Source of the DNA: Diphasiastrum complanatum
Lineage: Eukaryota; Streptophyta; Lycopodiopsida; Lycopodiales; Lycopodiaceae
Direction: 5' to 3'
NCBI GenBank assembly: GCA_029204225.1
Contig: CM055104.1
Coordinates: 41,829,187-41,893,186 of the forward strand
Length of the DNA: 64,000 nt
The notes beneath the pieces were generated by a model, which made no database searches, was not told where the DNA came from, and saw only the letters and a list, made by a program, of their open reading frames with translations. Positions 3,050-57,734 of the stretch are shown piece after piece. A program made the position numbers and the translations under genes. Each line of letters begins with the position of its first letter. Positions within the stretch are counted from its first letter, which is position 1.

Positions 3050-3330
3050 CTAAGACCTCAGGGAAGTTTGCGAGAGTTCAGAAGGTGATTTGACTGTTAT
3101 GCGAAGGTTCTGCGAGGGTTCAGATTGTCTGCGAGAGTTCAACTCTCGCAAGAAGTCATCGCTCGCACAACATGTTCCTATGATTGTACTTTCAAGATCA
3201 GACCATGTAGGCAGACTAATTTTACTGCTCTGATTCCATTTAGGCACCTTACGATGGTTGGTAGGATGATCTTGATGCTCTGCGAAGGTTCTGAAGATTC
3301 AGCTCTAGGAACTCTCGCACACACTAAAAA
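3050..3330. promoter_or_regulatory. Cluster of GCGAAGGTTC / GCGAGAGTTC motifs
   Basis: Near-identical decamers recur here: TGCGAAGGTTCTGCGAGGGTTC split over two adjacent units near 3100-3121, GCGAGAGTTCAACTCTCGC near 3132-3150, and GCGAAGGTTCTGAAGATTC near 3282-3300. They lie between the gypsy pol remnant and the TATA box of ORFx copy 1. Similar clusters occur at 16.93-17.11 kb and, as GCGAATTC variants, at 33.72-33.99 kb, each time upstream of an ORFx. They resemble LTR U3 enhancer repeats and contain GAAnnTTC cores. Confidence 0.5.
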
Positions 3331-5229: not shown

Positions 5230-5480
5230 AAGGCGCTACGTGCTGCTAGTAGTTGCCTTCGGACGATATTTGATATTCCGTCCAGTTGTGATAAAGGTAC
5301 TGATGAGCCGCCGATTGTTTGAGATGACTTTTGGAGTTGATATTGACATACAAATTGTCGATGTCGGGTGTCTGATGAATAGTCGATGTCGGTTGAGTAT
5401 ATTTGACCGACAAATAGTCAGAGTAGGTCGAATAGTCGAAGGATGGCCAAATAATCAATGTCGGTTGAGTCGTTAAGACA
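5230..5480. repeat. Reiterated GATGTCGG(TTGAG) motifs, LTR U3-like
   Basis: The word GATGTCGG, or TGTCGG followed by TTGAGT, recurs near 5360, 5388 and 5458. It is interspersed with ATAGTCGA and GTCGAATAGTCGAAGG words. Short irregular reiterations of this kind are typical of LTR U3 regions. No gene is supported here. Confidence 0.35.

Positions 5481-8360: not shown

Positions 8361-8365
<5 letters not shown>
8295..8365 (+). repeat. Telomere-like spacer, copy 1
   Basis: Contains TTTTTTAGGGTTAGG and then GGATATAAAATAGCCATAATG..GAGGTG before the next (GA)n. The same order is seen at 8840-8908, so GA tract plus spacer has been duplicated. The AGGGTTAGGG words resemble plant telomere repeats (TTTAGGG) but are too few to be a true interstitial telomere. 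Confidence 0.7.

Positions 8366-8417
<52 letters not shown>
8366..8417. repeat. (GA)n microsatellite
   Basis: About 52 bp of pure GA. It directly borders the dispersed repeat that starts at 8418. Confidence 0.95.
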
Positions 8418-8418
<1 letters not shown>

Positions 8419-8697
8419 AGCTCGTGGCTAACACCATTCTCCGCCTGGGTCCTAGATTACATGATGTGATGATGACCCTCCCAATGACCATTACCTAGTA
8501 TGTTATCGTTTTCTTATGTTATCGTTTTCTTCTCCGTGGCACCATAGATTACACCTTTGATATTGAGGTGAAATCTTAAAAGTCCTTATATTCATATATG
8601 GCATGGATTACAACTTTGATATTGAGTTAAACTCTTAAAAGTCCTTATATCCATCAAGTGAGTTTGTTATTGAGACCACATCACACACTATGGGTGG

Positions 8698-8839: not shown

Positions 8840-8908
8840 TGATTTTTTGTTTTTAGGGTTAGGGTTATTTTAGGGTTGTAGGATATAAAATAGCCATAAT
8901 GTGAGGTG
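8840..8908 (+). repeat. Telomere-like spacer, copy 2
   Basis: Repeats the block at 8295-8365: TTTTTAGGGTTAGGG, then ATAAAATAGCCATAATG and GAGGTG. It leads into a GT run and a short GA run (about 8920-8953) just upstream of an ATG at 8955. Confidence 0.7.
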
Positions 8909-8921
8909 TGCTTGCGTGTGC

Positions 8922-8953
<32 letters not shown>

Positions 8954-11200: not shown

Positions 11201-11439
11201 AGAAAATTGGATGGACATTATGCTCCTGAAGGTGGTCCCAAAATACAAAGGACACCTGAGCACAAGGCATTACGTTGAAGACAAATTTAGATCACAATCA
11301 GCAAAGGATGCACTACAATATGGGACGCAAGTTTTATTCCCTGAATGTAGCAATGCCTCGTGTCGTTAATAGAAACACTTACAAAAGGCTCTAACATATT
11401 CAACGTTCATTGAAGAAATTCAAAACTTATTGTTATGGC

Positions 11440-11685
11440 CCATAGTGTGCTCTGGTCTCAATAGCAAACTCACTCGATGAATATAAGGACTTTTAAGCTC
11501 AATATCAAAGCTGTAATCTATGGTGCCATGGATGAATATAAGGACTTTTAAGAGTTCAATATTAAAGGTGTAACCTATGGTGCCATGGAAAATAAAATGA
11601 TAACATACTAGGTAATGGTCATTGGGAGGGTCATCATCACATCATGTAATCGAGGACCCAAGCAGAGAATGGTGTTAGCCACGAG

Positions 11686-11690
<5 letters not shown>
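11440..11690 (-). repeat. GA-bordered dispersed repeat, minus-strand copy
   Basis: Reverse complement of 8418-8700. It includes TAGGTAATGGTCATTGGGAGG, split across 11610-11630, and GTGTTAGCCACGAGC ending directly at a (CT)n tract. The two copies face each other about 2.8 kb apart, flanking the SAP-like gene. Confidence 0.7.

Positions 11691-11752
<62 letters not shown>
11691..11752. repeat. (CT)n followed by (GT)n
   Basis: About 52 bp of CT, then GTGTGTGTGTG. A second short CT run is at about 11898-11915. Confidence 0.95.
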
Positions 11753-23090: not shown

Positions 23091-23860
<770 letters not shown>

Positions 23861-23877
23861 TCTCCCTCTCTCTCTAT

Positions 23878-24005
23878 CACTCACCATGAGAACCATTGAG
23901 AACCATGAGAACCGTTGAGAGCCGTGAGAAGCTTGAGAACCGTTGAGAGAGAGGAACCGTGAGAATCGTTGAGAGAGAGGAACTGTGAGAACTTTTGAGA
24001 GAGCG
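23878..24005 (+). repeat. 26-bp satellite (GAACCGTTGAGAGAGAG type), copy 1
   Basis: Units built from GAGAACCATTGAGAACC and GAGAACCGTTGAGAGAGAG with CCGTGAGAA linkers. The same family is at 36318-36486 and 36765-36870. In all three places it lies beside (CT)n/(GA)n. Confidence 0.8.
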
Positions 24006-24189: not shown

Positions 24190-24716
24190 ATCTCTGGAAT
24201 CTGCTACAAACACTTTCACGAAATACTTTGCATCTATCAGGTTGAGATTTGGGGATTACCTTTTTTACTCCATATCTTCTGTGATGGAACCTATCCTGAC
24301 CACCGAGGCAAAGGAAGAGGTGAAGCTAGCAACAAAGTGTGTGATGTGGAGGTGACATTGAATGTTTTTACATTTGCATGGTACATTTTGTTTATGTGTT
24401 TTTTTTACTGTAATCCAACTTGATGTGTTCAATTGGACAGATATTTCTTTCATCTTAAAGCGAAGCATGCTGTGGAGGAAATGCCTCAAGTAATGGATAT
24501 GTGGAATCAAATCTCCATGAAGAAGGAGTTTTTTATGAAATCTGCAAAGGCCAATCTCAACAGAAAAAATGGCCTGAGTGAGTGGGAAGTGAAGTTTTGT
24601 CCTTGGTGGATAGACTTCAAGGAGGGAGAATGTCCTCCCTCGGAAAAAACACAGTACCAGCTGCATGAGAAAGGACGTTTGGTTGTGGATGATGATGATG
24701 ATGCAACAATGACAAA
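24190..24716 (+). pseudogene. Unidentified multi-exon gene, part 1, interrupted by the copia insertion
   Basis: Two exon-like blocks are seen. The first follows TTATAG at 24189 and runs to about 24352 (GSLESATNTFTKYFASIRLRF). The second starts after TTGGACAG at 24442 (YFFHLKAKHAVEEMPQVMDMW). Splicing ATGTGGAG|GTGACA to GGACAG|ATATTT keeps the frame. The second block holds WEVKFCPWWIDFKEGECPPS and an acidic DDDDDAT. At 24716 the reading frame enters the copia LTR and resumes at 30700 with one target-site copy removed. I do not recognise the family; upstream exons were not found. Confidence 0.5.
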
Positions 24717-25407
24717 TGTGAAAAGTACAGTACTAAGGACCATAAATAGATCTTTGAATGATCCACAAGGTTGATTGTGTGCTTGTTAAACAATCTATCA
24801 GAAACTAGTCATCAGAAAACAAGATCTAGTTTAGCAGCTTGATAGAAAACAAGTAGAGACAATCAGAACATTGATCAAAAACTATAATCCAACTCCACAC
24901 ATGTGGAATTGAGGCTGTAGTACGGCCTGTAGATAGTGTTTAGAATGTGCCAAAGCTAGGTTTCATTGGAATCAAAAGTAACCACCATACAATGAGAGGA
25001 AACTCGAGTTTCTCCTTGAGGCTCCAAAAAGTTTCTATCTTCTCACTATGGAGAATGGGAATACATAGTAAAACACACTTTCTTTGCTAAGTTAGGTGAA
25101 AATACAGCATGTAATAAGGAAGTAGACTCCACTTTCTTGCCCTAATGTGAAAACCCTAGCCTAGATCCAAGAGTCATGCTTGGTAGGTACATGGTAGGTA
25201 CAAATCTCATCATAAATCATTGTCTAGATCCTACAAAGTAGGAATCACTACCAAATGGACACAACCACTCCACTTGAGTCGTGGTAACCTACTTTAAGTG
25301 TGAATGTACAAGTGGAACTTTGGCCATTCAAGTAACCAACAAACAATATTGACAAAATGTACAATATTCTACATGGCTAGATTTGCCAATGTAGGCAATT
25401 TTTCACA
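24717..25407 (-). repeat. 3' LTR of the copia element
   Basis: Begins TGTGAAAAGTACAG on the plus strand and ends TTTTTCACA; as TG...CA it has inverted termini TGTGAAAA/TTTTCACA. About 96% similar by eye to the other LTR. Confidence 0.95.
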
Positions 25408-26560
25408 CTCCTCCTCAAATCTAGCCTTGGAGATCACAATGCTTTTATCAATAACTCCGATTGAAGATCTAAGCTTGACAAATGAATCTTTAGGTAAAGA
25501 TTTAGTAAACAAATCAGCCAAGCAACTTGATGATGGCACGTGTTGGAGTCTGATCTCTTTAGCTTGCACTTTTTCCCTCATGAAAATGATGAGCAATTTC
25601 GATGTGTTTGCTCCTTGCATGGAATGTAGGATTATTTGCAAGTGATTGGGCTGATTGGTTGTCACAATAGATGATAGGAATCTCCTCCTCCATGACAAGA
25701 AGCTCCACCAATAGCCTTTTGAGCCACAAGACCTCCTTGCATGTTGATGTCGAGTCCTTGTATTTGGATTCTGTGGAAGATAGGGAGATGGTATCTTGTT
25801 TTTTGGAAAGCCATGATACTACTCCATCACATAGAAAGGTGGCAAAGGCACTTGTTGATCTTGTATCCACTTTGTCACCTGCAAAATTCGAGTCACTATA
25901 GGCTCTTAAGCCAAGATTAGTTCCTCTATACAAAATGCCAAAATTCTTAGTGGATGAAATGTATCTAAGAACTCTTTTGGCCATCTTCCAATGTGAAACT
26001 AGAGGACTTTGCATGAATTGGCTTAACTTTCCAACACTATAACTAAGATCAGGTCTAGTTATAGTTAAATAGATCAAGGAGCCAATAAGCCTTCTATATA
26101 ATGTGATGTCCTCAAGGGACGCTTCATCACAACCAATGGATGCTTTTACATGTTGCTCCATTGGTGTCTCAATACCTTTACAATTCTTCATTCCAAATCT
26201 ATCTAGGATGGATGTAGCATATTTAGATTGACAAATGAAGCTAAAATCACATCCTCTAATAACCTCTATTCCAAGAATGAAGCTTAATAGGCCGAGATCT
26301 ACCATCTTAAACTCTTTTGCTAAAGCAAATTTTACATCTCTAATTCCATCTAGATCATTACCACTCAAGATAATGTCATCTACATATAAAACAAGAATAA
26401 TGATCATGCCATCATGAAATCTTATGTACAATGATGGATCATAGGCACTCATTACAAAATTGATGGAAATGAGAAAAGAGTTTAGCCTAGAGTACCATGC
26501 TCTAGGTGCTTGCTTGAGCCCATAAAGGCTCTTCTTCAAAAAAACACACCTTTCCTTCAT
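25369..26560 (-). pseudogene. Copia RT C-terminal part and RNase H, frameshifted
   Basis: The main frame (26560-25559) carries SLYGLKQAPRAWYSRL, the RT active site YVDD (about residue 60, LVLYVDDIILSG), LGIEV, TITRPDLSYSVGKLSQFMQ and the RNase H segments YSDSNFAG and LSSTESKY. The last part (VPSSSCLADLFTKSLPKDSF) is in another frame from about 25590 on, so a second frameshift is present. It overlaps the end of the upstream frame; the break lies in an A-run near 26535-26545 that changes frame within RT. Confidence 0.85.
25408..25419 (-). promoter_or_regulatory. Polypurine tract of the copia element
   Basis: The minus strand reads TTTGAGGAGGAG directly against the 3' LTR, the expected plus-strand primer site. 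Confidence 0.85.
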
Positions 26561-29387
26561 GCTTTGCCTTGATGAAGCCCTCGGGTTGCCTCATGTAGAT
26601 CTCTTCCTCCAAATAACCATTGAGGAATGCATTTGTGAAGTCAAGTTGGAATAGCTCCCAATTGAAGGTTGAAGCAAGACTAATGATCAACCTGATAGTA
26701 ACAAGCTTAGCCACAGGAGCAAAAGTCTCATCATAATCAATGCCTTTGGTTTGTAAAAAACCTTTGGCTACAAGCCTAGATTTATGCTTGCTTATTGATC
26801 CATCTTGATTATACTTCAATCTAAATACCCACTTGCAATCAAGAGGTTTCTTCCCTTGAGGAAGATCCACAAGATCCCAAGTATGATTCTCAATAAGAGC
26901 ATCATACTCTACTTGCATAGCATCCATCCAACTTTTAGACTTACAAGCATCTTCATAGCATGTTGGCTCATCCAACATTGAAGTAATAAAGGTGTAAGAT
27001 GTGAAAGATGATGAGCCTTCCCTTTGATCACCTTGACCATCATAGGTGAGCCTCAATGGCTCGGATCTTTCCCTTGTAGATCTTCTTGGAGTTCTTGGAG
27101 TTCTTGCATCTTGAGGTAGATCCTCAAGTTCTTCTTCACTTGGAAGCTCCTCCTCCATCCTAGCATGATCCTTGGCATCAAGATGATTAGTAGCATTATC
27201 ATCCAAATCACAAGCATGTCCTTCATAAAAAATAACATCCCTACTCACTATCATGTTGCTAATGATGGGATTGAAGACTCTATGACCTTTGCTATTCTCA
27301 CCATATCCCACAAAGATTCCTTTGATGGATGTTGCATCATCCTTCCTTCTCTTATCCAAGGCTTGGTGTACATAGCAAGTGGATCCAAAAACTTTGAGAT
27401 CCTTGAGATTGGGCTTCTCTCCAAATAGAGCTTCAAATGGTGTGATTCCTCCAATGGCTTGGTTTGGCAATCTATTGCACAAATAGCTAGCACAAGTTAT
27501 TGCCTCACCCCAAAATGGTTTTAATAGAGAAGCATCTAGCCTTAAAGCCTTACCACACTCACAAAGAGATCTATTTCTTCTCTCACTCACTCCATTTTGT
27601 TGAGGGGTGTATGGACATGACAACTCCCTCTTTATGCCATTAGAACTACAAAAGTCAATCAACTTATTGGAGATATATTCACCTCCATTATCACTCCTTA
27701 ATACCTTAATCTTGGTACTAAGTTGATTTTCTACCAAAGTCTTGAACTTTACAAAAGAATCAAACACCATAGATTTGCTAGACAAGAGGTACATCCAAAA
27801 AAATCTAGAATAGTCATCAATGAAGATTACATAGTACTTGGCACCACCATTAGACTCATGTGAAAAACTATGAACATCCGAATGGATGAGTTCAAGAGGA
27901 GAGTCTGATCTTGATGTAGATCTTGAGAAGGGTAGTTTGTGAGCCTTTGAGAGGCTGCATGCTTCACATCTCTTCCCATACTTTGACAAATGCAGTCCAA
28001 CTGCAAGCTCCTTTGCTACCATAGATTCCATGGCTTTGTAGTTGGGGTGGCCCAACCTTTTGTGCCACAGTTCCACCTTTGATAACTCCACCTTTGCCAA
28101 GTTAACACTCTCCACTGCAACATTAGCATCAAGCTTAAACAATCTACCTTGTTTAAACCCTTTGGCTATACATTTATCATTTCTAAGAATGGAACAAACT
28201 CCATGCTTAAATTGTACATCTAGGCCATTATCCATTAACTGGCCAACACTAAGCAAATTCTTGGTTAACTTAGGAACATAAAGAACATTATCAAGATTCA
28301 TCCTTTTGGATGATCCAACATACAAGGGAATTGTTCCTATTCCACTTATCTTACATTCTTGACTACTTGCAGTATAGATTGATCTATGTAAATCATTGTA
28401 AGAAAGTAAAGTGGAGAATATGTCCTTTTGATATGTCATGTGGGAACTAGCCTCACTATCAATCCACCAAGAATCATTGGTGTTGCACTTGGATGATGGT
28501 GGTTTGTTGGAAACCATCAAGGATGACTCTTCATCCTCCTCCTCCTCCTGATGTGCAATGTTGCTTTGTTTGCCCTCTTGTGCCTTCTTCTTCTTGAGAC
28601 ATTTTGATGCAAAATGTCCTTTCTTCTCACAGAAAAAACATTTGTACTTGGACTTGTCTTTGATCTTGCCCTTTGAGCTTGAAGCCTCATCCTCCTCCTT
28701 GGTCTCCTTGAAGTGCATCTTCTTGCCATTGGTCTTTTTCTTGCCTTTGAATGAGAAATTAGCTTTCTCATCACCATCCTGCAGAGAAATAGCATTCATT
28801 CTTGCATTGGTATGCGTCATCCTACACTCTTCATCCACTAATACACTGTGCAGCTTTTCTATAGTGGGCAAAGTGTCTTGGATTGCAAAGCTTTGGACCA
28901 AATTTGTAAAGTAAATCCCTAGACCATTGAGGACAATCTGAACAAGCTCACTATCTTGAATGTTCTCTCCAATGGAAGCTAACTCCCTATTGAGAGACTT
29001 GATTCTTAGCACATACACCTGTGCACTCTCATCACTTCTCTTCATGCTTTGCAGAATCTGATTCCTAAGCATGAGAACCCTTGAAGTGTTACTAGACTCA
29101 TAGATTGATTTTAGAGATTCCCAAGCCTCTTTAGCACTGGTACAAGCTGATACTTCTCTCAATAAATCATTGTTTAAACTCATCTTCACACAGTGAAGTG
29201 CAAGCCTAGATCTTCTTTTGTACTTAGCTAACTCCTGTGCACCTAGAAGTTCATCTTCCTCATCAATCAGAAACTCATAGAGATCATGGAGCACCATGAG
29301 TGACTCCATCCTCACTTTTAAAATAGCATAATTGGTAGAATTTAGCCTCTCACTAGCTTCTAGAAGATATGCTCCAGCAGATCCCAT
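26502..29387 (-). CDS. Copia gag-protease-integrase-RT polyprotein (N-terminal 961 residues)
   Basis: Starts at an ATG (MGSAGAYLLEASERLN). Gag occupies residues about 1-245. The CCHC knuckle CFFCEKKGHFASKC is near residue 250. The protease site near 307 reads WWIDSEASSHMT; the usual D-S-G-A has Glu in place of Gly, which should impair cleavage. The pre-integrase LWHKRLGHPNY is near 437. The integrase core has HSDVHSF (D), RSDNGGEY (D) and QQNGVSERRN (E). RT begins near 834 (WKVDLP-like WDLVDLPQGK, ETFAPVAKL, QLDFTNAFLNGYL) and ends by frameshift in a homopolymer. It is otherwise intact over nearly 2.9 kb, consistent with fairly recent activity. Confidence 0.9.
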   Translation of the reverse strand: MGSAGAYLLEASERLNSTNYAILKVRMESLMVLHDLYEFLIDEEDELLGAQELAKYKRRSRLALHCVKMSLNNDLLREVSACTSAKEAWESLKSIYESSNTSRVLMLRNQILQSMKRSDESAQVYVLRIKSLNRELASIGENIQDSELVQIVLNGLGIYFTNLVQSFAIQDTLPTIEKLHSVLVDEECRMTHTNARMNAISLQDGDEKANFSFKGKKKTNGKKMHFKETKEEDEASSSKGKIKDKSKYKCFFCEKKGHFASKCLKKKKAQEGKQSNIAHQEEEEDEESSLMVSNKPPSSKCNTNDSWWIDSEASSHMTYQKDIFSTLLSYNDLHRSIYTASSQECKISGIGTIPLYVGSSKRMNLDNVLYVPKLTKNLLSVGQLMDNGLDVQFKHGVCSILRNDKCIAKGFKQGRLFKLDANVAVESVNLAKVELSKVELWHKRLGHPNYKAMESMVAKELAVGLHLSKYGKRCEACSLSKAHKLPFSRSTSRSDSPLELIHSDVHSFSHESNGGAKYYVIFIDDYSRFFWMYLLSSKSMVFDSFVKFKTLVENQLSTKIKVLRSDNGGEYISNKLIDFCSSNGIKRELSCPYTPQQNGVSERRNRSLCECGKALRLDASLLKPFWGEAITCASYLCNRLPNQAIGGITPFEALFGEKPNLKDLKVFGSTCYVHQALDKRRKDDATSIKGIFVGYGENSKGHRVFNPIISNMIVSRDVIFYEGHACDLDDNATNHLDAKDHARMEEELPSEEELEDLPQDARTPRTPRRSTRERSEPLRLTYDGQGDQREGSSSFTSYTFITSMLDEPTCYEDACKSKSWMDAMQVEYDALIENHTWDLVDLPQGKKPLDCKWVFRLKYNQDGSISKHKSRLVAKGFLQTKGIDYDETFAPVAKLVTIRLIISLASTFNWELFQLDFTNAFLNGYLEEEIYMRQPEGFIKAKHEGKVCFFEEEPLWAQAST

Positions 29388-30005
29388 CTTACTAGTAAGA
29401 TTCTACACACAAGATATAGATTTGTTTGAACTTGAAACTCACAAAAGTTTCTAACTTGCAGTGTTTCACTAAAATGTTGACTTCTAATCCAACAGATGGA
29501 CTTGTAATCATAGTTCTATTACTCCCTCACAAAGCTGGAATGAAGATAAGATGAAGTGAAAACTACTCTCAACAAATCTTGCCAATCTTGGCTATTTTTG
29601 GACAAAAACTGACTCTATCTCTCTCATTCACTTTGATGTACTTTCAAAACCTGGTTTCCACTTTAAGAAGGTCTGAAATCAGCCTATATTAATTAGTTTT
29701 CATGAAACAAATTCAAAACGAATCAATGGCAAGTGATCTTGGTAGCTTATCCTAGGATTTGCACCAAAAAATACATCAAACTGACACCAGATGAAATTAC
29801 TGTGATCCAATGAATATGAGTTATTAAATGCTAGTTCAGAGATGCCCACACGTGTGAACAGTACAGATTTTTATCCTAAAAAAGTTTGGGATCAAATCCC
29901 CTCACCAAAACCTGGATACCAGCTCGCCCTTCCAATACTAGCTTTTTGCACCAAAACCTGCTAAAACTGGATTAGTTTCAAACACTGATCAATAGCCTTG
30001 TACTT

Positions 30006-30018
30006 GGCTCTGATACCA
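30006..30018 (-). promoter_or_regulatory. Primer binding site of the copia element
   Basis: TGGTATCAGAGCC on the minus strand, immediately inside the 5' LTR. It is the classical initiator-Met tRNA complementary site of plant copia elements. Confidence 0.9.
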
Positions 30019-30694
30019 TGTGAAAAGTACAGTACTAAGGACCATAAATGGATCTTTGAATGATCCACAAGGTTGATTGTGTGCTTGTTAAACAATCTAT
30101 CAGAAAACAAGATCTAGTTTAGCAGCTTGATAGAAAACAAGTAGAGACAGTCAGAGCATTGATCAAAAACTATAATCCAACTCCACACATGTGGAAATGA
30201 GGCTGTAGTACGGCCTGTAGACAATGTTTAGAATCTGCCAAAGCTGGGTTTCATTGGAATCAAAAGTAATCACCATACAATGAGAGAAAACTCGAGTTTC
30301 TCCTTGAGGCTCCAAAAAGTTTCTATCTTCTCACTATGGAGAATGGAATACATAGTAAAACACACTTCCTTTGCTAGGTTAGGTGAAAATCCAGCATGCA
30401 ATAGGGAAGTAGACTCCACTTTCTTGCCCTAATGTGAAAACCCTAGCCTAGATCCAAGAGTCATGCTTGGTAGGTGCATGGTAGGTACAAATCTCATCAT
30501 AAATCATGGTCTAGATCCTACAAAGTAGGAATCACTACCAAATGGACACAACCACTCCCCTTGACTTGTGGTAACCTACTTTAGGTGTGAATGTACAAGT
30601 GGCACTTTGGCCATTCAAGTAACCAACAAACAATATTGACAAAATGTACAATATTCTACATGGCTAGATTTGCCAATGTAGGCAATTTTTCACA
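30019..30694 (-). repeat. 5' LTR of the copia element
   Basis: Same termini as the 24717-25407 LTR; it lacks the 14-bp insertion found there. ACAAA follows at 30695. Confidence 0.95.
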
Positions 30695-34207: not shown

Positions 34208-36150
34208 ATGGCTTCCCGCGATTCCTTGCTCAGCTTGCATCGATGTAAACCCCCTCATCCTTATTCAGGGGATATATTTATGATCTGTATCAAGAATTAC
34301 GCCGAGCAGCTCGCCCTGGCCAAGGATATCCTCACAAACATTGGCTTTGATCTGACACTTTTCTGGGACTAGCAGAGCGAGAGCCTCATCCGAGCAGCCT
34401 ACTCCACCTATTTGGATGAATTTCAAACTTTTCGGATTACATCCAAGAGTGGCAGCTATACCATTATCAACATCTCTCCTGGGGATCTCCAGAGCATTGG
34501 CTTCCCTAATCTCGGAGAGACAATCCATGGAAAGGGCACCAATTATGATGCCAAGTACTGCACAAAGTTTCTGACAGAGGACGACAAAACCATTGCCCAA
34601 ACCAATGACAGGATCGCTATCCGCCTCATCACGAATTCCCCATCTACGGGCCGCCTGAGAAATCCTCGTCACCATGGTCAAAGTGCATACCGTCAAGATG
34701 GATCGCATACCACCGGACAACCTCTTTTCTTTGACCCTCACCATGGACGATCCCACTCAAAATTATAAGTGGGCTGAGAAGGTAACAGAGAAGTTGTTCG
34801 GAGCTCTGAAAGCCCAAAAACCAACTACCAAATGTGGGTATCTCCTCCACATGCTGGTCACCACACAATTGGGGTCTAAGGCGGCTGCCGCCATCAAGGA
34901 GCTAGATGTTGTTTATCCCAGCACAAAAAAGTGAGCCACCCCCCAACCGATAGCCAAACCGGTCTCACCAGCCCCACCTACTAAGAAGCAGAAAGAGAAG
35001 GCGATTAGCACAGAAGCTGATGTCCCTCATGACATTCTATCTAGCGACATCGAAGTGGAATATGCTGAATCCGGAGGGAGCCTTAAATTATCTCAGGTCC
35101 CAAAGGAGGTCCTAGAGCAGTAGATGGCCTTACTTCACCAGGCCCAGCAACGCAAACAAGCAGTAGCGATAGTAGCAGGTAGCTCTAGGACGGCAAGCAC
35201 TGAAATCCTATGGGCGTGATTTTGTCCACACATACAATCTCCTTGCCATCACTTGCTCTCACACTCCCACTACCACCCCCACCATTTACTGCCACCTCCA
35301 CACCCTCACTAACTCTCAACACGAGCTTCACTTCCACCCTTCCACAAAAACCCTCACCTGTACAAATCTCCACCCTACTTACATAGATGATTTTGCATTA
35401 CAATTACTAAGTGCACTTCCATCAACCACTGTCAGTGACTAACCCAATCCAAACATCTCCGCCATGCAGTATCTCCCCACCTCTTGTACCCCCTCAATCC
35501 ACAATCAACTCCACATGCTTTTCATACACCTCCGTCTAGCCCTGCTCCTGATTTTCTACCATTTAACCCAATGTTGTATCCTAACTACACACGCACCCTC
35601 CCTGACATTGGTCCTTGGGAGCAGTTACCCCTTGCAGCCCAAAAAGCAGTATGGTTGGTGAATGAGCTCCAATACAATCTATTCGGCACCCTAGGGGGAC
35701 AATATACTATGCGGCAATTCGACGATGGTGCTATGGTGGACCTTCAGAAAGAAAAAGCAAGGCTTGAGGAGGAAAACAAACAACAATAGCTGCAGATCCA
35801 GAACCTCACGAATTACAATCAACAACAACAGCAGATGCTACTCCACCTCCAGGACCAGCTCCAACTGAAGGTATCCAACATGCAGCAAACCATCGATACC
35901 CTCAAAGCCGAAAAGGATGAGGCTGTAGCATATTCACAAGCAGCACGTTCCGCTACGAAGGAACAGTTGGAAATGGTGGACTTCAACGACTTTGCACCAC
36001 CAACTATTCCTGAGGGAACCGCCATTCCAGTGGTGGCCTATCAAACGCTGGCCCAAAAGCTGAAAGCCACGATGCAGCACTCAAAATTACAACAATCATA
36101 CATTGCTTCCGTTGAGGCCTTAAACCAGCACATAGCCACCCTGGAAGAAT
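34208..36150 (+). pseudogene. ORFx copy 2 (decayed), with long C-terminal coiled coil
   Basis: Starts MASRDSLLSLHRCKP; an in-frame TAG sits at about 34370, then the same frame continues (QSESLIRAAYSTYLDEFQTF). Later pieces in other frames include MVKVHTVKMDRIPPDNLFSL and WAEKVTEKLFGALKAQKP. From about 35210 to 35460 the sequence is Thr/Pro-rich; from 35650 to 36150 it is a coiled coil ([53 protein letters not shown]). The architecture matches copy 1: globular head, low-complexity middle, coiled-coil tail. A (GA)n tract replaces the natural end at about 36155. Confidence 0.55.
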
Positions 36151-36153
36151 GCT

Positions 36154-36729
<576 letters not shown>

Positions 36730-36764
36730 ATCATTGAAGCACTGATACAGATGCTATAGCATCC

Positions 36765-36870
36765 ACCGTTGAGAGAAAGGAACCGTGAGAAGCGTGAGAG
36801 AGGAACTGTGAGAACCGTTGAGAGAGAGGAACCGTGAGAACTGTTGAGAGAGAGGAACTGTGAGAGAACG
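36765..36870 (+). repeat. 26-bp satellite, copy 3
   Basis: CCACCGTTGAGAGAAAGGAA then GGAACCGTGAGAA and GAACCGTTGAGAGAGAGG units, as at 36.3 kb and 23.9 kb. Confidence 0.8.
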
Positions 36871-43103: not shown

Positions 43104-43952
43104 CTACTGCTGTCTCCACATAAACTACTAACTGTGCACATTCCTAGCCCTACATGCAGTTGTCACACACAGGAGAGGGAATGAAGGTGATGGATTCGGT
43201 TAGTTAACCATGCCATATCACCTTAGTTAGTGAATGTGAAAAAAAATGCATTGTTTTAGTCAGTGCTAACTGAAACGACTAATTGAATCAATTTGTTAAC
43301 TGTAAGTGGGGCCCACTGGCATTTTCATTATCGCTAACTAGAAGCACTAACGGCTGGTGGGGCCCCACCCTAAGACCATTAGCTGTCGAATAAAAAAGGC
43401 CCATAATGGATCCGATGAAGTTTTCCAACCAAAAATGGATATGAAATTTGTTGAAACTTTCCTGTAGCAACCTCACTTGCCGGGAAGCAAGCAAACTTAT
43501 GGAGCTCTTAAAAGAAGCACAAGAACTAAGAAAAAATCTAGCAAGTTTCATTTGGCAATGACATCTGATCCAGGCAAGGGTTGGGGGGCGGGGTTAGTGT
43601 AGGTACCCACCCCCTAATGTGTGTGAGTTTATTATACAATTTTCTTTACGGTAGGCAAGAATTTTTCTCAAAACATACACAATGGGCCTCACATGCTTTT
43701 TAGGTTGATGCTCTCAACAATTAAAATATTGGAAACGTGAAAACACGGGAACACATCAAAATGTAATAATAAATAATACCAAAAATGAAAGGGGTAGTAG
43801 TTGAACCAATAAGTGAAGCCTTGTTTCAATAACACTCAATTCCAGTTCTACTAGTGAATTACGAAGAAGAATGATCGCGCTGGAGCTCGCAGATGCAGCA
43901 GAAGCTCGAGGGAGCGTGAAGGCTTTTGTGATGCAGCAGCAGCTTGATCGAG
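43104..43952. other. Upstream region of the DUF604 gene
   Basis: Non-coding. The last 80 bp carries an upstream ATG (43871) opening a 58-codon frame that ends at a TAG at 44045-44047, overlapping the start of the glycosyltransferase in another frame. No convincing TATA box is visible close to the gene. Confidence 0.4.
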
Positions 43953-46900
43953 ATGGTAAATCTAGGCATCGTCAGGCTCGGCATTTTGCTGCTCGTAACT
44001 CTTGTGTGTGGCTGTGGATATGTCATGTTCTCGGCTCTGCTCGGTAGCTCACATTTCGACTCATACTTGCATTGCAGAGATAGAAGGTGCTTTCCTCTTT
44101 ATTATAAGTCGGCTCTAAGGCTTCCTTTCCATTCCTCTTCTTCTTTTTCTTCTTCGCATTCTTCGTTGTCTTCTTTGGTCTTCACGCCTCTGCAACGGCC
44201 GTTAGAAGATGATGCAGGGAGTCCAGCAAGCACAAGCTTGGCCAATATTGTGTTTGGTATTGCAGCATCGGCAAGGCTTTGGGATAAACGTAAAGAGTAT
44301 GTCAGCCTTTGGTGGAGGGCTGATGCTATGCGCGGATTTGTGTGGTTGGATCAACCAGTTGGAAACTGGTCAGATTCCTTTCCAGCTTTCAAAATATCTG
44401 CAAATACTTCGCATTTCAGGTACACCAACAGAAGAGGGCGTAGATCAGCCTTACGAATCTCTCGAGTTGTATCAGAGACCTTTAGAATGGGGCTTTCAAA
44501 TGTGCACTGGTTTGTGATGGGGGATGATGACACTTTCTTTGCCACAGAAAATCTCATCAAGGTTTTATCTAAATACGACCATCGGCAGTTTTATTATATT
44601 GGAGCCAATTCCGAAAGTCACTTCCAAAACTTAAATTTCTCCTATAATATGGCATATGGTGGAGGAGGTTTCGCTCTAAGTTATCCTTTGGCAGAGGCTC
44701 TGGAAAAAATGCAGGATGATTGCCTTCATAGGAACCCTTCTTTGTATGGAAGTGACGACCGGATGCATGCATGCATGGCGGAACTAGGAGTACCACTCAC
44801 AAAAGAGCCTGGATTTCATCAGGTACCAACCTCTTCAATTCTCCTTAACTAGTTTGTTTGTGTTTCTTTAGCTGCTGTTCCAGGAAATGTGATAGTACTT
44901 AAAGTTACCCTTATTTGCATTTTGAATTTTTCTTTCGGACATTGGAATCCTAATCACTATCAAATGTTTCTTTGATTCACTTGAGCCATGTAATTTATTG
45001 TTATGTGTAGAGTCTAGACTTTAAATGCTGTAGTTATTACTATAAAACGCTATACTTTTGTGTTGGAATCTAATACATGCCGATAAAATGTCAATTCTCA
45101 GGCTTTTGTGCTATTACGAATGTAAATTTTCTCACAGCTGGAATTACACCTATGCTTTGCTTAATTTTACTGTCTCATGTCCATATCTGTCTCTTTCAAT
45201 GCTGGTGATTGACTGTTTCTAGCATGCCATAGGATGAGAACATTTTATGTTGCAGTTTCTGTGTAGTCGGTTTTTAAAATACTTTTTTTGAATGTTGTCT
45301 AGAGCAACAGTAATGGGCCAATTTTTTTTTAAACAATCTAGTCGTCGGATGTTGGTTGGCCAAAGGTTGGAGTTGGGAGTGGACAGAGGTGGGAAGATTG
45401 AGAGGCCAAAGCATGAGGGCAGAAATTGTTTTAAGATGTGGTGATTAGGAGGGCCCTAGTATGGGCTTGGGAGGGCAAAGATGAGGGTTGTGCGTTCCAA
45501 ACTTGATGTCTAAAACTCTGATCGAGATAAAGTTAGTTGCAAATAGTTCACTTAATGTATTAATACCGATCTATTCAAATGCTTAAAGGTCTCGTGGTGA
45601 TGGACTTTACTATTTAGCCTTCTAAAATGTTCAACTAGAAGCTCTGTTTGTACCAATCTCATAATCTTTGGATGTGGTGTACAAAGACAAGGTAATGTGA
45701 TCTCACATAATACTTTTTAATAAACTAGAATTTTATAGATGCTTGGCCCTTCTACAAGTTGGAATGGTGGCTCTTGATGTAATCTGGATATTTATCGCGA
45801 TTTGAACCTCTTCATACCAATGCAAATTGTTTTAAGATTCGAATTAAAATTTTGCAATTTCTTTTGGGGAATCTAGTTTTCGAATGTCATTGCATTGTTT
45901 TAAACTTGTGCACAATGAATAGTATTGTTGAAAAATTGTGCACATTTTGGTTCATAGTCAAATCGATTCGAATCTTTTGGTGAGGCTATGACTATGCTTG
46001 GAAGCCTATTGATTTATTTGCTCATACACCCTTACTTTAGGACCAAGCTCATATGCTTGTTGCCACTATTGATTTGACTGTGCAAGGTTTGTTTGCTAGA
46101 AAGGATCTAATATTGTTCAAGATCCACTTGTTGCTCCCCTTGATTGTAGAGCTATAATTCTTTTAATACTTATGTTAGCAGCTACTCTTATTCAATCTAT
46201 TGTACTTTTATGGCTTACTTGCCTAGGACCCATTTTGGCCCTTTTAGTAGGGGCACAACTGGACTTGAACCGAGTTTCTCAACAAGTTATCATTAATAGA
46301 AGTACTTTCTTTTACTGAACAGTAGTGGTGCCATTTATTTGATAGCGTGTGATCTAAGTACTAGAGGCTTTTTTTACATAAAACTCAATGCACTTCCTTG
46401 TAGGGGATCACTAATGGTATTATTTGTGTTCTCTCAAAATCCTTAATTTGAAGTATGCTATTTGATTCATCTTAAATGATCATTGTTCTTATGTGAATTC
46501 AAATTTGTGAATTAGTTCATAACACTGCGTGATTTCCTTTATTGTGTGGTTGTTTTTTTCTTTGTTGAATAATGTGATGAATGATGGTAGCCATTAGGCT
46601 AATGTTTGATGTCTCCTCTATTGAGCATAGTTGAGTGGATTGAGAGTGAATGATGAGTGGTGATGCTTTGGTGCTTTAAGTGCGCGAGAGAGAGATAACA
46701 TAATGACACATAGTTCCTCTTGACAAGTCAAGAAGCTTTGAAAACCTTTTTTCATGAACTAACAAGTTAAGACAAAGCCGAAAAGTATATATAGTACTCA
46801 GAAAAAGCACCATAAAGCAAAACTCATCTCAAGACATCCAGCTGGTACCACCATCCCACTTAAGACAAAGCCGAAAAGTGTATATAGTAGTCAGAAAAAG

Positions 46901-49080: not shown

Positions 49081-51400
49081 ACATCCAACAGACTCACATC
49101 ATCTGACAATTCTTCATGGTATAAGTTTTTTGTTCAATATTTTATACCGATAACTATAAAAGCAAACTACATATTTAGCATATGCACTTTTTGTGATGAA
49201 AAATACAAGAAGTAACATATTGTTGCGATGCCTTCCAATGTTTCGTGGACCTTTTCAAAATGCCTTTTCAAAACTGATGAATGATGACCCATAAATCATT
49301 GCTCATGTAACATTGAAATTTGATAGCCTGCAATTGTTAAATGTCTAAACTTTAAGGTTGATAATGCAACATGCCCATAGATTTCTAAAAGACCGTAGTC
49401 AATATTTGATAATGCTCGTTGCCAAAATTTAAAATCAAGTCCCAAATCATACATGAATGATGGCACATGTCATTCCAACTTCCAATGTTTGGATTCCATA
49501 AAAGTCAAATAGCAAATTACAATATCTACTAGTCTGCAGAGTGTGAACAACTTTAAAATAAAATTCTAATTACTAAAGCCCGAGAAAGTAGGGCTGAAAT
49601 CTAATAGCTAAAGGCTAACTAGTAACATCTAATGCAGCCTACTCGTAGTCACCCGTGATGCAGGTGCACGCTCATAACCCTCATCATCGTCACTCGGACT
49701 TTCATCCCTCCTTGAGGAATTTGAGAACTCCTCACTGTCATCCTCATCCTCTGAGAGTCTTCCGCCTCCTCTGGCTCCTCTTCCTTGACTGCTTGACTCC
49801 CTGCATAACCTTATCTTTGCCATCATCCTCAATGACATTGTCAATATAGCCAAAGAGTTTCTAGTATCCAACACTCAACCCGGCTGTGAGGTGTCAATGG
49901 ATCTATTGTGCTCATGCAAGAGGACTATGATATTTTGATAATGTGGCGCCTCCTAGTATTAGTCCATTTAATATGATGGGGCACCCATACCTATTTCAGA
50001 TTTATGATGGAGCACACATGACACACAGTGACAAACGACTCAATGGCCATTTTCAAAAGTTAAGACTCATAACTCAATAATAAATATCAAATAAACAATG
50101 AGCTTAGTATTTACTACTTAGCCAATTAGCCTACTGAAAGTTGAAAGTCTAAAGTTAGAACTTCAAAACTAAGGGTAACAACTTCCAACTTGACAATTTA
50201 AAGCAGAGTACGATTAGGGTTTAGGGTATATGTGTTACATGACCTCCTAATAAGCTCTAGTGCGCTATCCACGTAGTCTCACTTGGCAACTAGCTCCCTT
50301 GTCTTCAAATGCTTCATCTAGGTCCATCCCGCTCAGCACCAATCCTGGAAACATGCCTCATCATCGTTATCCATGTAGGGTCTTAGCCACATGAAAGCAA
50401 AGGTTGCACAAGTAGTAACACTTTCAAACATAAACTAGTGCCGCTATTTTTTTGATGACTGAAATTGTTCGATGTAAACATCTCTACTAGTAGGCCTAGG
50501 TGGACGAACTTGGCTGCTACCCCTTGCCCTCTGATAGTGCTGCCAATCCCAGATGCATAGTGTTAACCGCGGTTGGCTGTGATGAAAAAGCCTTTGTCAA
50601 TGAGCAACATTTTACAATCTACAATGAGAAAAATAATAACGATACGTATTACGTATAATCTTAAAATTTTAATTTTAAAATGTAGGTATATTGTATTAGG
50701 GCTTGGACAGCAAATTGTTTGAACTTTGATTTAGGACTTCGAACTTTGAACTATCAACATTGTCAAGTTTACTATCTAGAGCTTAGGAAGTTATCGTATA
50801 GGAAGTTAAAAGTAGGATCGGTAATTACTAACTTGGGGTCAAAATAGTAGCATTCGACTGTATCAACAGTGAAGCTAGTGCACATGTAAAACTTGCAATA
50901 TCATATCCATGCAATCAAAGTAGGCGTGCCTTTATTCTCATAGAGCCACTTGATTTGTCGTTCCTGAAATACTTGCATGTCCACCTCTTTGTGCCTGAGT
51001 GTAATAGGCTCCCCCACAAGCGATCCCTCTCCCTCAACATGGTTTGAGGTCTCCTCTCTCCCTAAATCTAACGCTAGTTTCTAGATTTTAACACTAATCT
51101 CACCTTAATTAGTAATCACACACTACTAGCTAGTCTAGTTCTTAGTTCTAACAATATTCTAAGTTCTAAGTTTTAACATTAATCACTCATTAGCAATGAT
51201 TAATTCTAAGTTCTAAGATCTTGCACACTAATACTAATCTTAAAATTTAACTTCACACTAACTTCTCTCCCTCACCTCCATCTTTCTAGACTCTCCCTCA
51301 GTCTTATTCCCTCATTTTTCAAGTTTCAAGCACATTCACATTTCTAATCTATGTATCTCATTGCCTATCCTCACACAAAAAACATAACTTAGTACTAAAC

Positions 51401-51469
<69 letters not shown>

Positions 51470-52697
51470 GGCGCCTAAACGGCGCCCGGTTGCTGTCTCG
51501 CCCCGCTCTCCACCATCACGCTCCCTCTCCCCCCTGTCAGCCCGCTGATATGGCCTCAGTCCCGCTACCTGCTGGCTCAGCCGCCTGTCAGCCCGCTGGT
51601 ACGGTCCTGCTACTTGCTGGCTCACCCGATGCCACCTGTCAGCCCGCTGGTATGGATGAGCTGGTTGCGCTGCCTGCTGGTTTGCTTGCTGGTACGGATG
51701 CTATCCCGCAGCCTGCCAATCATTGTCCCACAGTCCTGCTGATGCCTGTTGCCATTTGTACGGATGCTGCCACGGCTTCACAGCCCGCCAGCCAGCCCAA
51801 CAGTCCACAGTCCCGCTGCCAGCTGCCTCCAGTATGGGTGCTGTTTTGGCCACTCCCTCCGGGCTTCCCGGACTTGGGAGCGGTCCGGGGGCGAGCATTA
51901 CAGTTGGGTCTTTGGAACTGCAATGGTATTCACTCTTCAGCCACGGCTGGTGATTTCAGAGTCTTTTGTGATACCAGAGACATTCTACTATTTACGAAAA
52001 CACATGAGAGTCCGGGGAGAGGACTTCTCGATGTTGAGGGTTTTTGTTGGATATCGGCGTACAGGACAATGATGAGGGCCTCTACAAGCTGTGGGTCAAG
52101 AGGAGTTGCATGTCTCTTTAGGGACCATCTTCAGCCTTGGGTCGAGCTCCTGTACACGGATGAGCGTCCTTGCTATATTTGGATTGGATTGGACCATACA
52201 CTGATGGCGCTTGATCAGGATATATTTATGGCCATTTGCTACTTTCCTCTATAAACATCATCGTTCACTCAGGATGAGGAGTCATGTTCCATGGACATTT
52301 CATCGGACATTGTCAGATACGTAGAGCGAGGATACATCCTTCTAGCCGGGGATTTTAATGCCAGGATTGGGTCCATGCAAACGAAGTTTCATAGTGCCAC
52401 AGATGATCCACATCGGATACATGCGTTAGATTGGGATGGTCTCGGTCTTCGGCGTCAGTCCGCAGATGCAGATGGTCCGATTACATCTTTTGGGGAGCAG
52501 TTACTCCAGTTACGCGAACCAAATGGATTGGCCATTTTTAATGGCACGCTTCAGTTGCCAGGCTCAGGAACTATACTTGCTTCCCGGATAGTGGAGGACA
52601 CAGTGTTGTTGACTACTTCATGGGATCACCGTCTCTCCTTTCCTCTATTTCATCTCTCTCTGTTCATCGTACTACTCTCTCTGATCACTCATACCTA

Positions 52698-52767
<70 letters not shown>

Positions 52768-53953
52768 GGCTGCTGGCCCAGCTCCATCGCGCTGGTGGCC
52801 GCCTGATCCATGTTGCTGCTGGCACCTGCTCCTTGCGCCCTCCATCGCGGCTGCTAGCGCCCTCCATCGCCCTTCCTCTTTGAGCCTGTTCATCGCTGAT
52901 GGTGTCTAGCTAGCCATCCTTGCTTGCCTATCCTTCAAATCTGCAAAATGCCTCGTCGAAAAGGGGTTATTCCTGATCCATCTTCTGTTTCCATCATTGC
53001 CTGAACCTCACAAACAGATCCAACTTCAACTTCCCCTTCTACTTCTATGCCCGTTGCAATTCCTATCTCTCCATCAAATCCTATTACCAACAATGAAACT
53101 ACTGTAGCTATTCCCTTGACTCCAAACACTCCAGACTCTCTAGAAGCACCTGCTTCTCTCCCCACATATACCATAGTCCGTCTTCTTCGTGAAGATCAAC
53201 TTCGTCTATTTGAATACCTTAACAATCATAGAGAGAAACTTGCTTCCCATGATTCTCTACTTCTCGCTGTGCAATCGCACCTTCAGCAGCTAGACACTTC
53301 CATTGAAGCACTCAAGAAGGAAGTTGCAGTTATCAAAAGTGAAAATTCTTCCCAAATCGCTACTTCAGAAAAGATTCAGCAGCTCGAAAATCAGGTGGAA
53401 CAGCACCATACGGCTGTCCAATCATGGGCAGATGTACTTAAAGGTTCATCTACAACTATCTCTCCACTTTCGCCATCACCTTCGTTTATCTCAGCCACGT
53501 TCAACGAGGGCCGTCTGCGAGAACACAAAGCTCTCAATGTCCGTGTTAGAGGTATCTCGAACTCCCAAAATGCTGTTGAAGAAGCTGAAAAGTTTTTGGA
53601 AGGAAATCTTCAGCACCATAGCAAAGGTATGGAAACTTCTTGGCGACCTAAGAAGGACCTAGATAACACTTTGACAACATACCTGACGACAGAGGAGAGC
53701 GGCATATCCAGTGGTACCATCACAGCATACCATACACACTTTCTTCCAGGTTGCTGGACATCATAATGTATCATACCAGGCCGATGGACCCTGACTGGGC
53801 CAGGCAAATTTTTCATACAGCTTATATATAGCATTTGTTTGCAGTTATTATTTCTTTTGGATTATCGAGCTTTAAGCTCCTATGTTTTCACACTTGACAT
53901 GTACCTTTTCTTAGTCCTATGTACCTTAGGGTATCCCAAAGGCCATTAATAAA

Positions 53954-54032
<79 letters not shown>

Positions 54033-54075
54033 CGCCTAAACGGCGCTCGGTTGCTGTCTCGCCTTGCTACACTCC

Positions 54076-54136
<61 letters not shown>

Positions 54137-57100
54137 CGCCTAAACGGCGCTCGGTTGCTGTCTCGCCCCGCTACACTCTGAGGCAGTCTTTTGAACATTA
54201 TGTCCTATCCTACATTGAACAACTCAACCAAGAATCTAGCTTCCTAAGGCAGGAGATTCGACAAATGCAGGTCACCATTCACACTATGGCTATGGAAAAA
54301 GGTGCAATGGCAGTCCGGATCACCACTTTGGAAGAGGCTTTGCGACGAGAGGGACCGGACAGCACAACTATCCAAGATTTTGAGGCAAAGATCGAACAAC
54401 ATAAGGCTGAGACCAAAACTTGGGCTTCACTCTTCAAGAAACGAGAATGCGGACACACCTACATTGAATACCGTTATTTCAGCCAACATATCAGAAGAAA
54501 AGATGAGAGAATATAAAGCTATGAACATTCGGGTACGTGGTATTGAGGACACTACTGCTCCCATGACCGAGGCAGCCCACTTTCTCTCTACCGTACTAAC
54601 CCATCACTCTTATGGTTTGGAACGAGCATGGAGAATGAAAAGGGATCCTTCTACACTCATTGTACGGTTTACTAATTTGGATGATTGGCAGCCCTCAAAC
54701 TACGGGCTAAGTTACGAGGTACACATATCTTTATGGATGATGATCTCACGTCTATGCAAGTGACGGAAAGGAAGAGGGTTTTCAGTGAAGCCAAAGGATT
54801 TGGTAAAAGGGTGATTTTTCGGGAGGGCAAGGCTGGATACATCGACTCACCACCACTTGAGAAATAGGGAATGGGGCTTCCCGGACTTGGGAGCGGTCCG
54901 GGGTCGAGCATTATAGTTGGGTCTTTGGAACTGCAATGGTATTCACTCTTGAGCCACGGCAGGTGATTTCAGAGTCTTTTGTGATACCAGAGACATTCTA
55001 CTATTTACGAAAACACATGAGAGTCCTGGGAGAGGACTTCTCGATGTTGAGGGTTTTTGTTGGATATCGGCGTACAGGACGATGATGAGGGTCTCTACAA
55101 GCTGTGGGTCAAGAGGAGTTGCATGTCTCTTTAGGGACCATGTTCAGCCTTGGGTCGAGCTCCTGTACATGGATGAGCGTGCTTGCTAGATTAGATTGGA
55201 CCATACATTGATGGCGCTTGATCAGGATATATGTATGGCCATTTGCTACTTTCCTCTATAAACATCATCATTCACTCAGGATGAGGAGTCACCTTTCATG
55301 GACATTTCATCGGACATTGTCAGATACGTAGAGCGAGGATACATCCTTCTAGCCGGGGTTCGCAGATGCAGATGGTCCGATTACATCTTTTGGGGAGCAG
55401 TTACTCCAGTTACGCGAAGCAAATGGATTGGCCATTTTTAATGGCACGCTTCAGTTGCCAGGCTCAGGAACTATACTTGCTTCCCGGATAGTGGAGGACA
55501 CAGTGTTGTTGACTACTTCATGGGATCACCGTCTCTCCTTTCCTCTATTTCATCTCTCTCTCTGTTCATCGTACTACTCTCTCTGATCACTCATACCTAT
55601 CACTCTCGATAGGTCGCCTCCCCATCAATGACCGCACATACTCCTATCTCACCTCACATTGTGAAACCGCTATATCGCTACACCCCATGTAACACACCAC
55701 TCTACAGGGAAGTCCTGTCTGATTTACTTATACATTTCCCTAAAGTATGCTCCTGACATCCTCTCACCCTTTGTCTCCACTCTCTTTAACCGCGCTGCCA
55801 CTTCCGTTTTCCCTTCCTCATGATCCACCAACCTGATCCATCCTATTCGCAAAGGCAGTGATCCTATGAAGGTTGACAACTACTGTACTATTATGATCAA
55901 CCACCTCTTTGCCAAAATCTATGGTTCTATTCTACAGTCGGAGACCAGTGTAGAGATGGACATCAGATCGCTTAATGCTATTGGACAGGCAGGTTTCAGA
56001 CCAGGATACACTACCACAGATCATATCTTCACTCTGAGATCCATTATAGAGGAGGCTAGGCCAAGAGAGCGTGTATATTGCTGCTTTGTGGACTTCCGCA
56101 AGGCTTTTGATCCAGTGCCTAGACATCTACTGATACAACGGCTTTGGGATCGAGGATTTCAGGAGGATACCATACGGGCAGTGGTGTCATTATACAGGTG
56201 GGTTATTGGTTGGGTTCGACTATCAGGAGTCCTATCACTCGAGGTTAAGAGTAACATTGGGGTTAAGTAGGGATGTCTCATCTACACTCTTTGGACTATA
56301 CATTGATGAGCTGGAGCAATACAACGAGATGGAGGGGAGGGCTGCACATTAGGAGCCCTTATCATTGCTATCTTGTTATATCCGATGATGTCGTTTTACT
56401 CTCGAGGACCAGAGAGGGTTTACAGAGGCACCTGGATGCTCTTTTTTCTTTTTGTACACGGTGGGGCTTGTCAGTGAATATAGCCAAGACCAAGGTCATG
56501 GTATTCGACACATTTAGATCTTTCATGATGTGACAGGAGCTCCTATGGGATGGCCATATCTTGGAGGTTGTTGACTCATACACACACCTAGGTGTTCTAT
56601 TTTCCGGTCCTACATTTAGCATGCAACAGGCAGCCGCTTCACGAGTACGGAAGGGCTATGCCTTGCTGGTAGATTTGGAGCAGTTTTGTTCTCGTTCACA
56701 CATCAAAGACGCATCTAATGAGTGCCGACTTTTCGATACTATGGTGGTTCCCTTTGCTATGTATGCCGCCAAGATATGGAGTACGAGTTTGACAGTTACT
56801 GAGCGGGCACATATCTCATGCCTACAGGTCCAGATGTTATCCAGGATGATACGAGCCAAGCCTTCAGTGCCACATCAAATTATATTGGCAGAGTTTGCGG
56901 TTCCTCCTATCGTGGTTGAGGCCCTTTTTCATATTGTTACATTTATACAGAGGCTAGATGACTTTCAGGATGGAGACACACGCTATGTTGTCGTTGCCTT
57001 ATCCTCTTCATGACGCCTACACTCAACGGGACATTTATTCTCATGGTATTCACTATTGTTTGTTCAGGGAGCACCCAGTCACACTCTCTACTTTGATATC

Positions 57101-57662
57101 CTACGAGGATTCTAGATGTGTATCTACTATCTTTGATGATCCGGGAGATGTCCGACATGCGGATGGGGAGACTTTCTATACATACGCCATCCTTGGTCCA
57201 GCTGAGCATTAGGGTGTACATATCTCGCCAACGTCTGAGATTCGAGGTGAACAATGATTCGGAGGGAGAGGCTGAGATTCCTGATGTTTCTAGACTCTGG
57301 CAGCAGAGACAGTGTCGACACCCAGATAGAGAGCCCGCTATCAGAGCATAATCTAGAGGTTTACGACAATGAACACTTTGACAACATAACTGACGACAGA
57401 GGAGAGCGGCATATCCAGTGGTACCATCACAGCATACCATATACACTTTCTTCTAGGTTGCTAGACATCATGATGTATCATACCAGGCCGATGGACCTTG
57501 ACTGGGCTAGGCAAATTTTTCATACAACTTATATATAGCTTTTGTTTGCAGTTATTAGTTCTGTTGGATTATCGAGCTTTAAGCTCCTATGTTTTCACAC
57601 TTGACATGTACCTTTTCTTAGTCCTATGTACCTTAGGGTATCCCAAAGGCCATTAATAAAGT

Positions 57663-57734
<72 letters not shown>

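Follow-up and report, generated by a model that had tools for sequence, protein, structure and literature searches.

The window analysed here, a 64,000-bp stretch of Diphasiastrum complanatum contig CM055104.1, contains at 51404-57732 a head-to-tail array in which pieces of long interspersed nuclear elements (LINEs) alternate with CT microsatellite tracts. All parts lie on the + strand. In order, the series consists of (CT)32, copy 1 of a LINE family called A, (CT)30, the 5' region of a related family called B joined to an A-type 3' untranslated region (UTR), (TC)37, a stub of A, (TC)28, copy 3 of A and (TC)33.

The first tract (51404-51467) separates an unrelated left flank from the 5' end of copy 1. 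This copy (51468-52700) starts with ATGGCGCCTAAACGGCGC, has 353 bp of 63% GC (51508-51860) where the first open reading frame (ORF1) would be, continues with the endonuclease region from 51861 and lacks the 3' half. The (CT)30 tract (52701-52760) is followed by the 5' region and ORF1 of B (52761-53664; ATG at 52948, protein start M-P-R-R-K-G, in-frame stop after 18 codons). Fused to B is an A-type 3' UTR (53665-53955), 96% identical to that of copy 3, which ends in AATAAAGTT with the last T read into the (TC)37 tract (53956-54029). Beyond this tract lies the stub, 48 bp of the A 5' end (54030-54077), separated by (TC)28 (54078-54133) from copy 3 (54134-57666). Copy 3 comprises a 5' end, a broken ORF1 (last piece ending at 54864), a broken ORF2 with endonuclease and reverse transcriptase (RT) pieces (protein matches extend to about 57058) and a 3' UTR that also ends in AATAAAGTT. 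The (TC)33 tract (57667-57732) separates its 3' end from an unrelated right flank (TAAAGAAGCTCACAGG). TRF matches for tracts that were reported singly amount to 96% (51400-51467), 100% (52701-52761) and 97% (57663-57733).

Exact matches to GGCGCCTAAACGGCGC lie at 51470, 54031 and 54135; the window has no others with three mismatches or fewer, and none of 100 shuffles produced three occurrences. (CT)n directly precedes every one of them, with the border ...CTCTATGGCGCC in copy 1 and ...CTCTCTGGCGCC in the stub and copy 3. At the other end, (CT)n takes over from AATAAAGTT at 53956 and, with CTT between them, at 57667. The ends and the repeat share one orientation at this locus, with CT on the sense strand in all copies. 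The original prediction, that a LINE is bordered by CT on both sides in fixed polarity, thus holds with three exact starts and two ends, and the single tract that it saw joining a 3' end to a 5' end is borne out at 53956-54029. The outer tracts separate the element ends from flanks that are dissimilar to each other and to the rest of the window. With TACTAAACTCA on the left and TAAAGAAGCTC on the right, an insertion into an existing tract would imply an empty site that reads TACTAAACTCA-(CT)n-TAAAGAAGCTC. No target site duplication was seen by eye outside the tracts.

To specify the nature of the elements, read-through pieces of ORF2 were used as a protein query. Among 7993 candidates scored, 465 proteins were related at E <= 1e-10 and the best 120 of these were used; the organisms named among these 120 are Adiantum nelumboides and Taxus chinensis. 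P0001-P0006, P0018 (A. nelumboides) and P0020 display 40-47% identity over 49-74% of the query. The best 120 match the window in the array only, except for three rows of the chimeric P0018 that lie beyond its RT part. PF00078 (reverse transcriptase) was detected in two of nine scanned window pieces, one match passing the curated cut-off (E 1.1e-7) and the other falling short of it (E 2.6e-5). None of the nine pieces gave a Pfam endonuclease match by itself; window pieces do align, at 36% and upstream of the RT, to the PF03372 domain of P0001. Exo_endo_phos and RVT_1 are both above cut-off in P0001, P0003 and P0007, three of the five relatives scanned, and the other two have RVT_1 with weaker endonuclease matches. 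Judged by these matches, the array elements are broken LINEs with a predicted APE-type endonuclease. Against solved structures, the window RT piece matched L1 (0.0073-0.019) slightly better than R2 (0.05-0.15), with a recA row ahead of both at 0.00076, while the RT of P0003 matched R2 (3.3e-24) slightly better than L1 (3.9e-21). Because the two strengths are similar and their order differs between window piece and relative, the clade is not established by RT matches.

In copy 1, ORF1 of A starts (ATG GCG CCT AAA CGG CGC) at the exact border of the tract, ATGGCGCC lying directly 3' of (CT)n. Since the ATG sits at this border, CT is the sole leader 5' of the start codon in copy 1. The A of the ATG is lacking from the border in the stub and copy 3. 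The ORF1 proteins of A and B are homologous (33% identity over 152 amino acids). Profile matches of B ORF1 are all below cut-off, many of them to coiled-coil-like families, and a resemblance of ORF1 to an RNA recognition motif was read by eye only. The A ORF1 protein found no match at E <= 0.001 among 251 candidates. A 3' stem-loop ahead of the tract, as in stringent-type recognition, was rejected (z-scores 0.18 and -0.13). The 5' end has a GC hairpin, but this does not stand out from what such a composition would give (z -1.50 and -0.72).

Relatives were also sought among assembled contigs. The scan of genome_contigs gave seven loci. L001-L003 are the nearer ones (44-59% identity to P0003, which heads the query alignment, and 29-58% to parts of the array LINE) and L004-L007 are distant (23-26%); the scan of viral_contigs gave two remote loci, and no match to the 5' and 3' end patterns of A was found there. 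The proteins P0001-P0006, P0018 and P0020 and the loci L001-L003 share an endonuclease/RT protein family with the array LINE. None of L001-L003, whose LINE ends are not delimited, contains a CT or GA run of at least five units, and their tandem arrays have periods of at least 7. L003 has an open ORF1 upstream of the endonuclease, which starts at 1355 and is not preceded by a CT run; in L001 and L002, DNA is present past the end of the LINE match. As the ends are not delimited, this absence of CT is weak evidence against a clade-wide habit. Among L004-L009, CT runs occur only in L005: (TC)9 at 3270-3287, at a distance of about 680 bp beyond its LINE match, and one of 10 bases at 5279. L001-L003 themselves are LINE-bearing, apparently eukaryotic contigs in a metagenome-assembled genome of Trichormus (ERR2144891_bin.1). 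Since the fern Azolla harbours Trichormus azollae as a symbiont, these contigs of the cyanobacterial assembly probably derive from host DNA.

The original prediction had treated the array's ends as separate. Three 5' ends and two 3' ends are indeed present, but their independence is not supported, given a duplication at the stub and two lesions that the copies share. The starts at 54031 and 54135 fall in a tandem duplication with a 104-bp unit (53974-54178, 98% matches), to which the stub belongs. In the two endonuclease stretches that they share, copies 1 and 3 show 95.3% and 98.4% identity. Both have, judged against P0001 and P0003, an in-frame TAA after CYFPL (52252-52254 in copy 1, 55259-55261 in copy 3). 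They also have identical bases, GGCTCAGGAACTATACTTGC, at the frame break between PGSG and YTCFP (52561 and 55461). In copy 1 the alignment switches frame at this point. In copy 3 one alignment can continue in the later frame owing to a nearby upstream deletion of about 100 bp, so the frameshift that it shares with copy 1 is deduced from the identical bases. Two common lesions in neighbouring copies suggest that both descend from a single dead copy, local duplication being the simplest route. The array ends may trace back to perhaps a single founding insertion of A and a single 5' region of B. The fixed orientation relative to the repeat is likewise that of copies of one locus, possibly derived from a single insertion, and the shared lesions and the duplication lower the number of insertions into the repeat that may count as independent at this one locus.

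Of eight LINE/CT junctions listed, five are A-type ends (three 5' and two 3'), one is the border of B and two are internal to the element (52700/52701 and 54077/54078). Copy 1 breaks off at TATCA|CTCTCT, where copy 3 has TATCACTCTCGATAGG; the stub breaks off at CACTCCGA|TCTCTC, where copy 3 has CACTCTGAGG. At both points copy 3 runs on beyond CTCTC or CACTC. Pieces lacking their 3' part are not expected from simple target-primed insertion. The internal junctions therefore indicate that CT tracts recombined at this locus.

Edges at CT/GA tracts are also seen in other repeats of the window. One dispersed repeat, present at 8365-8694 and inverted at 11439-11741 (81-86% alike), directly adjoins (GA)n in each of its copies, the order being (GA)n, then AGCTCGTGGCTAACACC. 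Sequence from the opposite side of the 8365 tract reappears in part at 8844-8953. The tracts at 23606, 36155 and 36542 have flanking sequence in common; at 23606-24003 and 36155-36865, long CT/GA tracts adjoin GAACCGTGAGA-type minisatellites common to both places. CT edges are therefore not peculiar to the array LINE.

We propose, with about even confidence, that a LINE settled within a CT tract and was afterwards multiplied and scrambled via the tracts at the DNA level. CT at both outer borders, common polarity, shared lesions, the stub duplication and the internal junctions are observed; the order of events is inferred. In LINEs generally, a nick in the target strand primes reverse transcription. 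Here, a two-ORF element with APE endonuclease would have lodged within a host (CT)n microsatellite by target-primed reverse transcription, a nick in the GA strand priming cDNA synthesis from an RNA whose 3' end pairs with the nicked strand, so that (CT)n of the same polarity came to lie on both sides. The locus would have expanded after the element, or its source copy, had lost function. Unequal exchange or slippage between tracts could then account for the head-to-tail copies, for the 104-bp duplication at the stub and for the joining of CT-like motifs inside the element to the tracts. By the same route, a 5' fragment of the related LINE B may have been brought in at a CT tract.

Several points weigh against this proposal. 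Mobilisation of a dead copy in trans could likewise yield shared lesions. The 353-bp segment of copy 1 occupies the position of ORF1 in copy 3, and beyond the first 40 bp no similarity between the two copies was found there; copies 1 and 3 are therefore not simple duplicates. Further, families A and B are both bordered by CT on the 5' side (B at 52761), which fits a habit of the lineage better than chance, unless B entered by CT recombination.

Such a habit is what a CT-targeted family would display. Its endonuclease would nick the GA strand of (CT)n, the RNA 3' end would pair with the primer, and repeated independent insertions would build the array, nested insertions in the same orientation giving the observed layout. 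As ORF1 begins at the tract border, the upstream tract might double as promoter or 5' leader. All A-type ends of the window, three 5' and two 3', adjoin CT in one polarity, the related family B is CT-bordered on its 5' side too, and no leader but CT precedes the ORF1 ATG of copy 1. On the other side, shared lesions and the stub duplication cut the number of independent events, the two internal junctions demonstrate recombination of tracts, none of the 11 other tracts of the window adjoins the array LINE, and the three nearest relatives found as contigs (L001-L003, their ends not delimited) have no CT/GA run of at least five units, including 5' of the open ORF1 of L003. We regard targeting as possible, though less likely than not. 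A fuller version, in which a CT-microsatellite-specific LINE lineage of a lycophyte has no 5' UTR of its own and uses the tract as both landing pad and promoter or 5' leader, appears unlikely.

How often a LINE would meet a tract by chance can be estimated from the window itself. Counting CT/GA runs of at least 20 bp in the 57,665 bp outside the array, we found 11 tracts of 20-187 bp. In this post hoc estimate based on one window only, tracts make up 965 of 57,665 bp (about 1.7%), and about 0.9% of positions lie inside a tract with at least 20 bp of tract left on each side. A single founding insertion in a tract is uncommon, not remarkable; because random insertion hits a tract in about 1.7% of cases, one founding event is no proof of targeting. 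A narrower form of our proposal, that the LINE landed by chance in a CT/GA-rich region and its family is unrelated to CT, is consistent with this proportion and with the lack of tracts in L001-L003. It leaves B unaccounted for, unless B entered by CT recombination: the B border is a second CT adjacency, though such recombination could have selected it. Taken in this narrower form, the idea is doubtful.

The original prediction had offered two choices, that the element inserts into CT tracts or that it makes CT tails. Target specificity is not shown, as the ends may reduce to few events and the tracts were involved in local duplication and in recombination within the element. Tailing alone is disfavoured, because (CT)n lies between the unrelated flank and the 5' end of the leftmost copy, where insertion within a tract explains it. 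An element that carries CT itself, with (CT)n as leader ahead of the ORF1 ATG and as tail generated by repeated copying at its 3' end, so that it would seed microsatellites on landing, would agree with CT lying directly 5' of the ATG and directly 3' of the 3' UTR, with Lepidoptera RTE elements that seed microsatellites from their 3' end (accessible part of PMC2887409) and with several green algal LINE families that end in short repeats (PMC3747384, Table 3, as far as accessible); it is improbable, however, since its tail leaves the outermost left tract unexplained, the tracts of A differ little in length between the 5' side (56, 64 and 74 bp) and the 3' side (66 and 74 bp, the 74-bp tract counting for both), these lengths fall within the 20-187 bp range of the 11 other tracts, and no plant or green algal family in the accessible part of the PMC3747384 table, which includes no lycophyte, ends in CT.

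Several further features lie outside the array. The glycosyltransferase ORF at 43932-44852 shows 100% identity over the 290-amino-acid query to O6H91_13G078300 of Diphasiastrum complanatum (lycophyte, Lycopodiaceae); the next match by E value has 59% identity over 92% of the query. An open frame at 35790-36341, coiled-coil-like by eye, continues without a break into an (AG)58 tract, which it reads as (RE)n. Long frames on the - strand at 24716-30694 resemble a Copia-like element by eye, and the direct repeats at 24716-25407 and 30018-30694 (94.7% identical) are probably its long terminal repeats.

Targeting of CT tracts by the family, if true, would mean that a land plant has a microsatellite-specific LINE and that an element can use its own target as leader. 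If the family does not target them, the locus still shows in compact form how transposon pieces can be copied and shuffled by long CT tracts, and cautions against treating such ends as independent insertions.

Non-LTR (long terminal repeat) elements at simple repeats include Waldo/Mino of the R1 clade. Kibi, which belongs with other fish LINEs of the Tx1 group, reportedly inserts in (TC)n. If so, it resembles the array LINE in being of APE type and bordering TC repeats, and differs in being an animal element. No microsatellite-specific LINE of a land plant was found described among the open-access matches listed, and the accessible part of PMC12868710, consulted for LINEs of Diphasiastrum, contains nothing relevant. 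In the accessible part of PMC3747384, 224 of 233 L1 families of flowering plants end in (A)n, none in another repeat and nine in none; in seven plant RTE families the terminal repeat is (TTG)n or (TTGATG)n, and green algal LINE families end in (A)n, nothing or other short repeats, none of them CT. Among animal non-LTR elements, Togen is found at (TG)n and some HERO families at microsatellites (accessible part of PMC4640811). Waldo/Mino, Togen and HERO are likewise located at simple repeats, but their repeat units and clades are other than those of the array LINE. According to the same part of PMC4640811, HERO, and Togen by kinship with NeSL, group with elements that encode a restriction-like endonuclease, whereas the array LINE is of APE type. 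The Lepidoptera RTE elements, as far as the accessible part of PMC2887409 describes them, share with it a 3' end that enters a simple repeat; their repeat is confined to the 3' end, between target site duplications, whereas in the array LINE CT lies on both sides.

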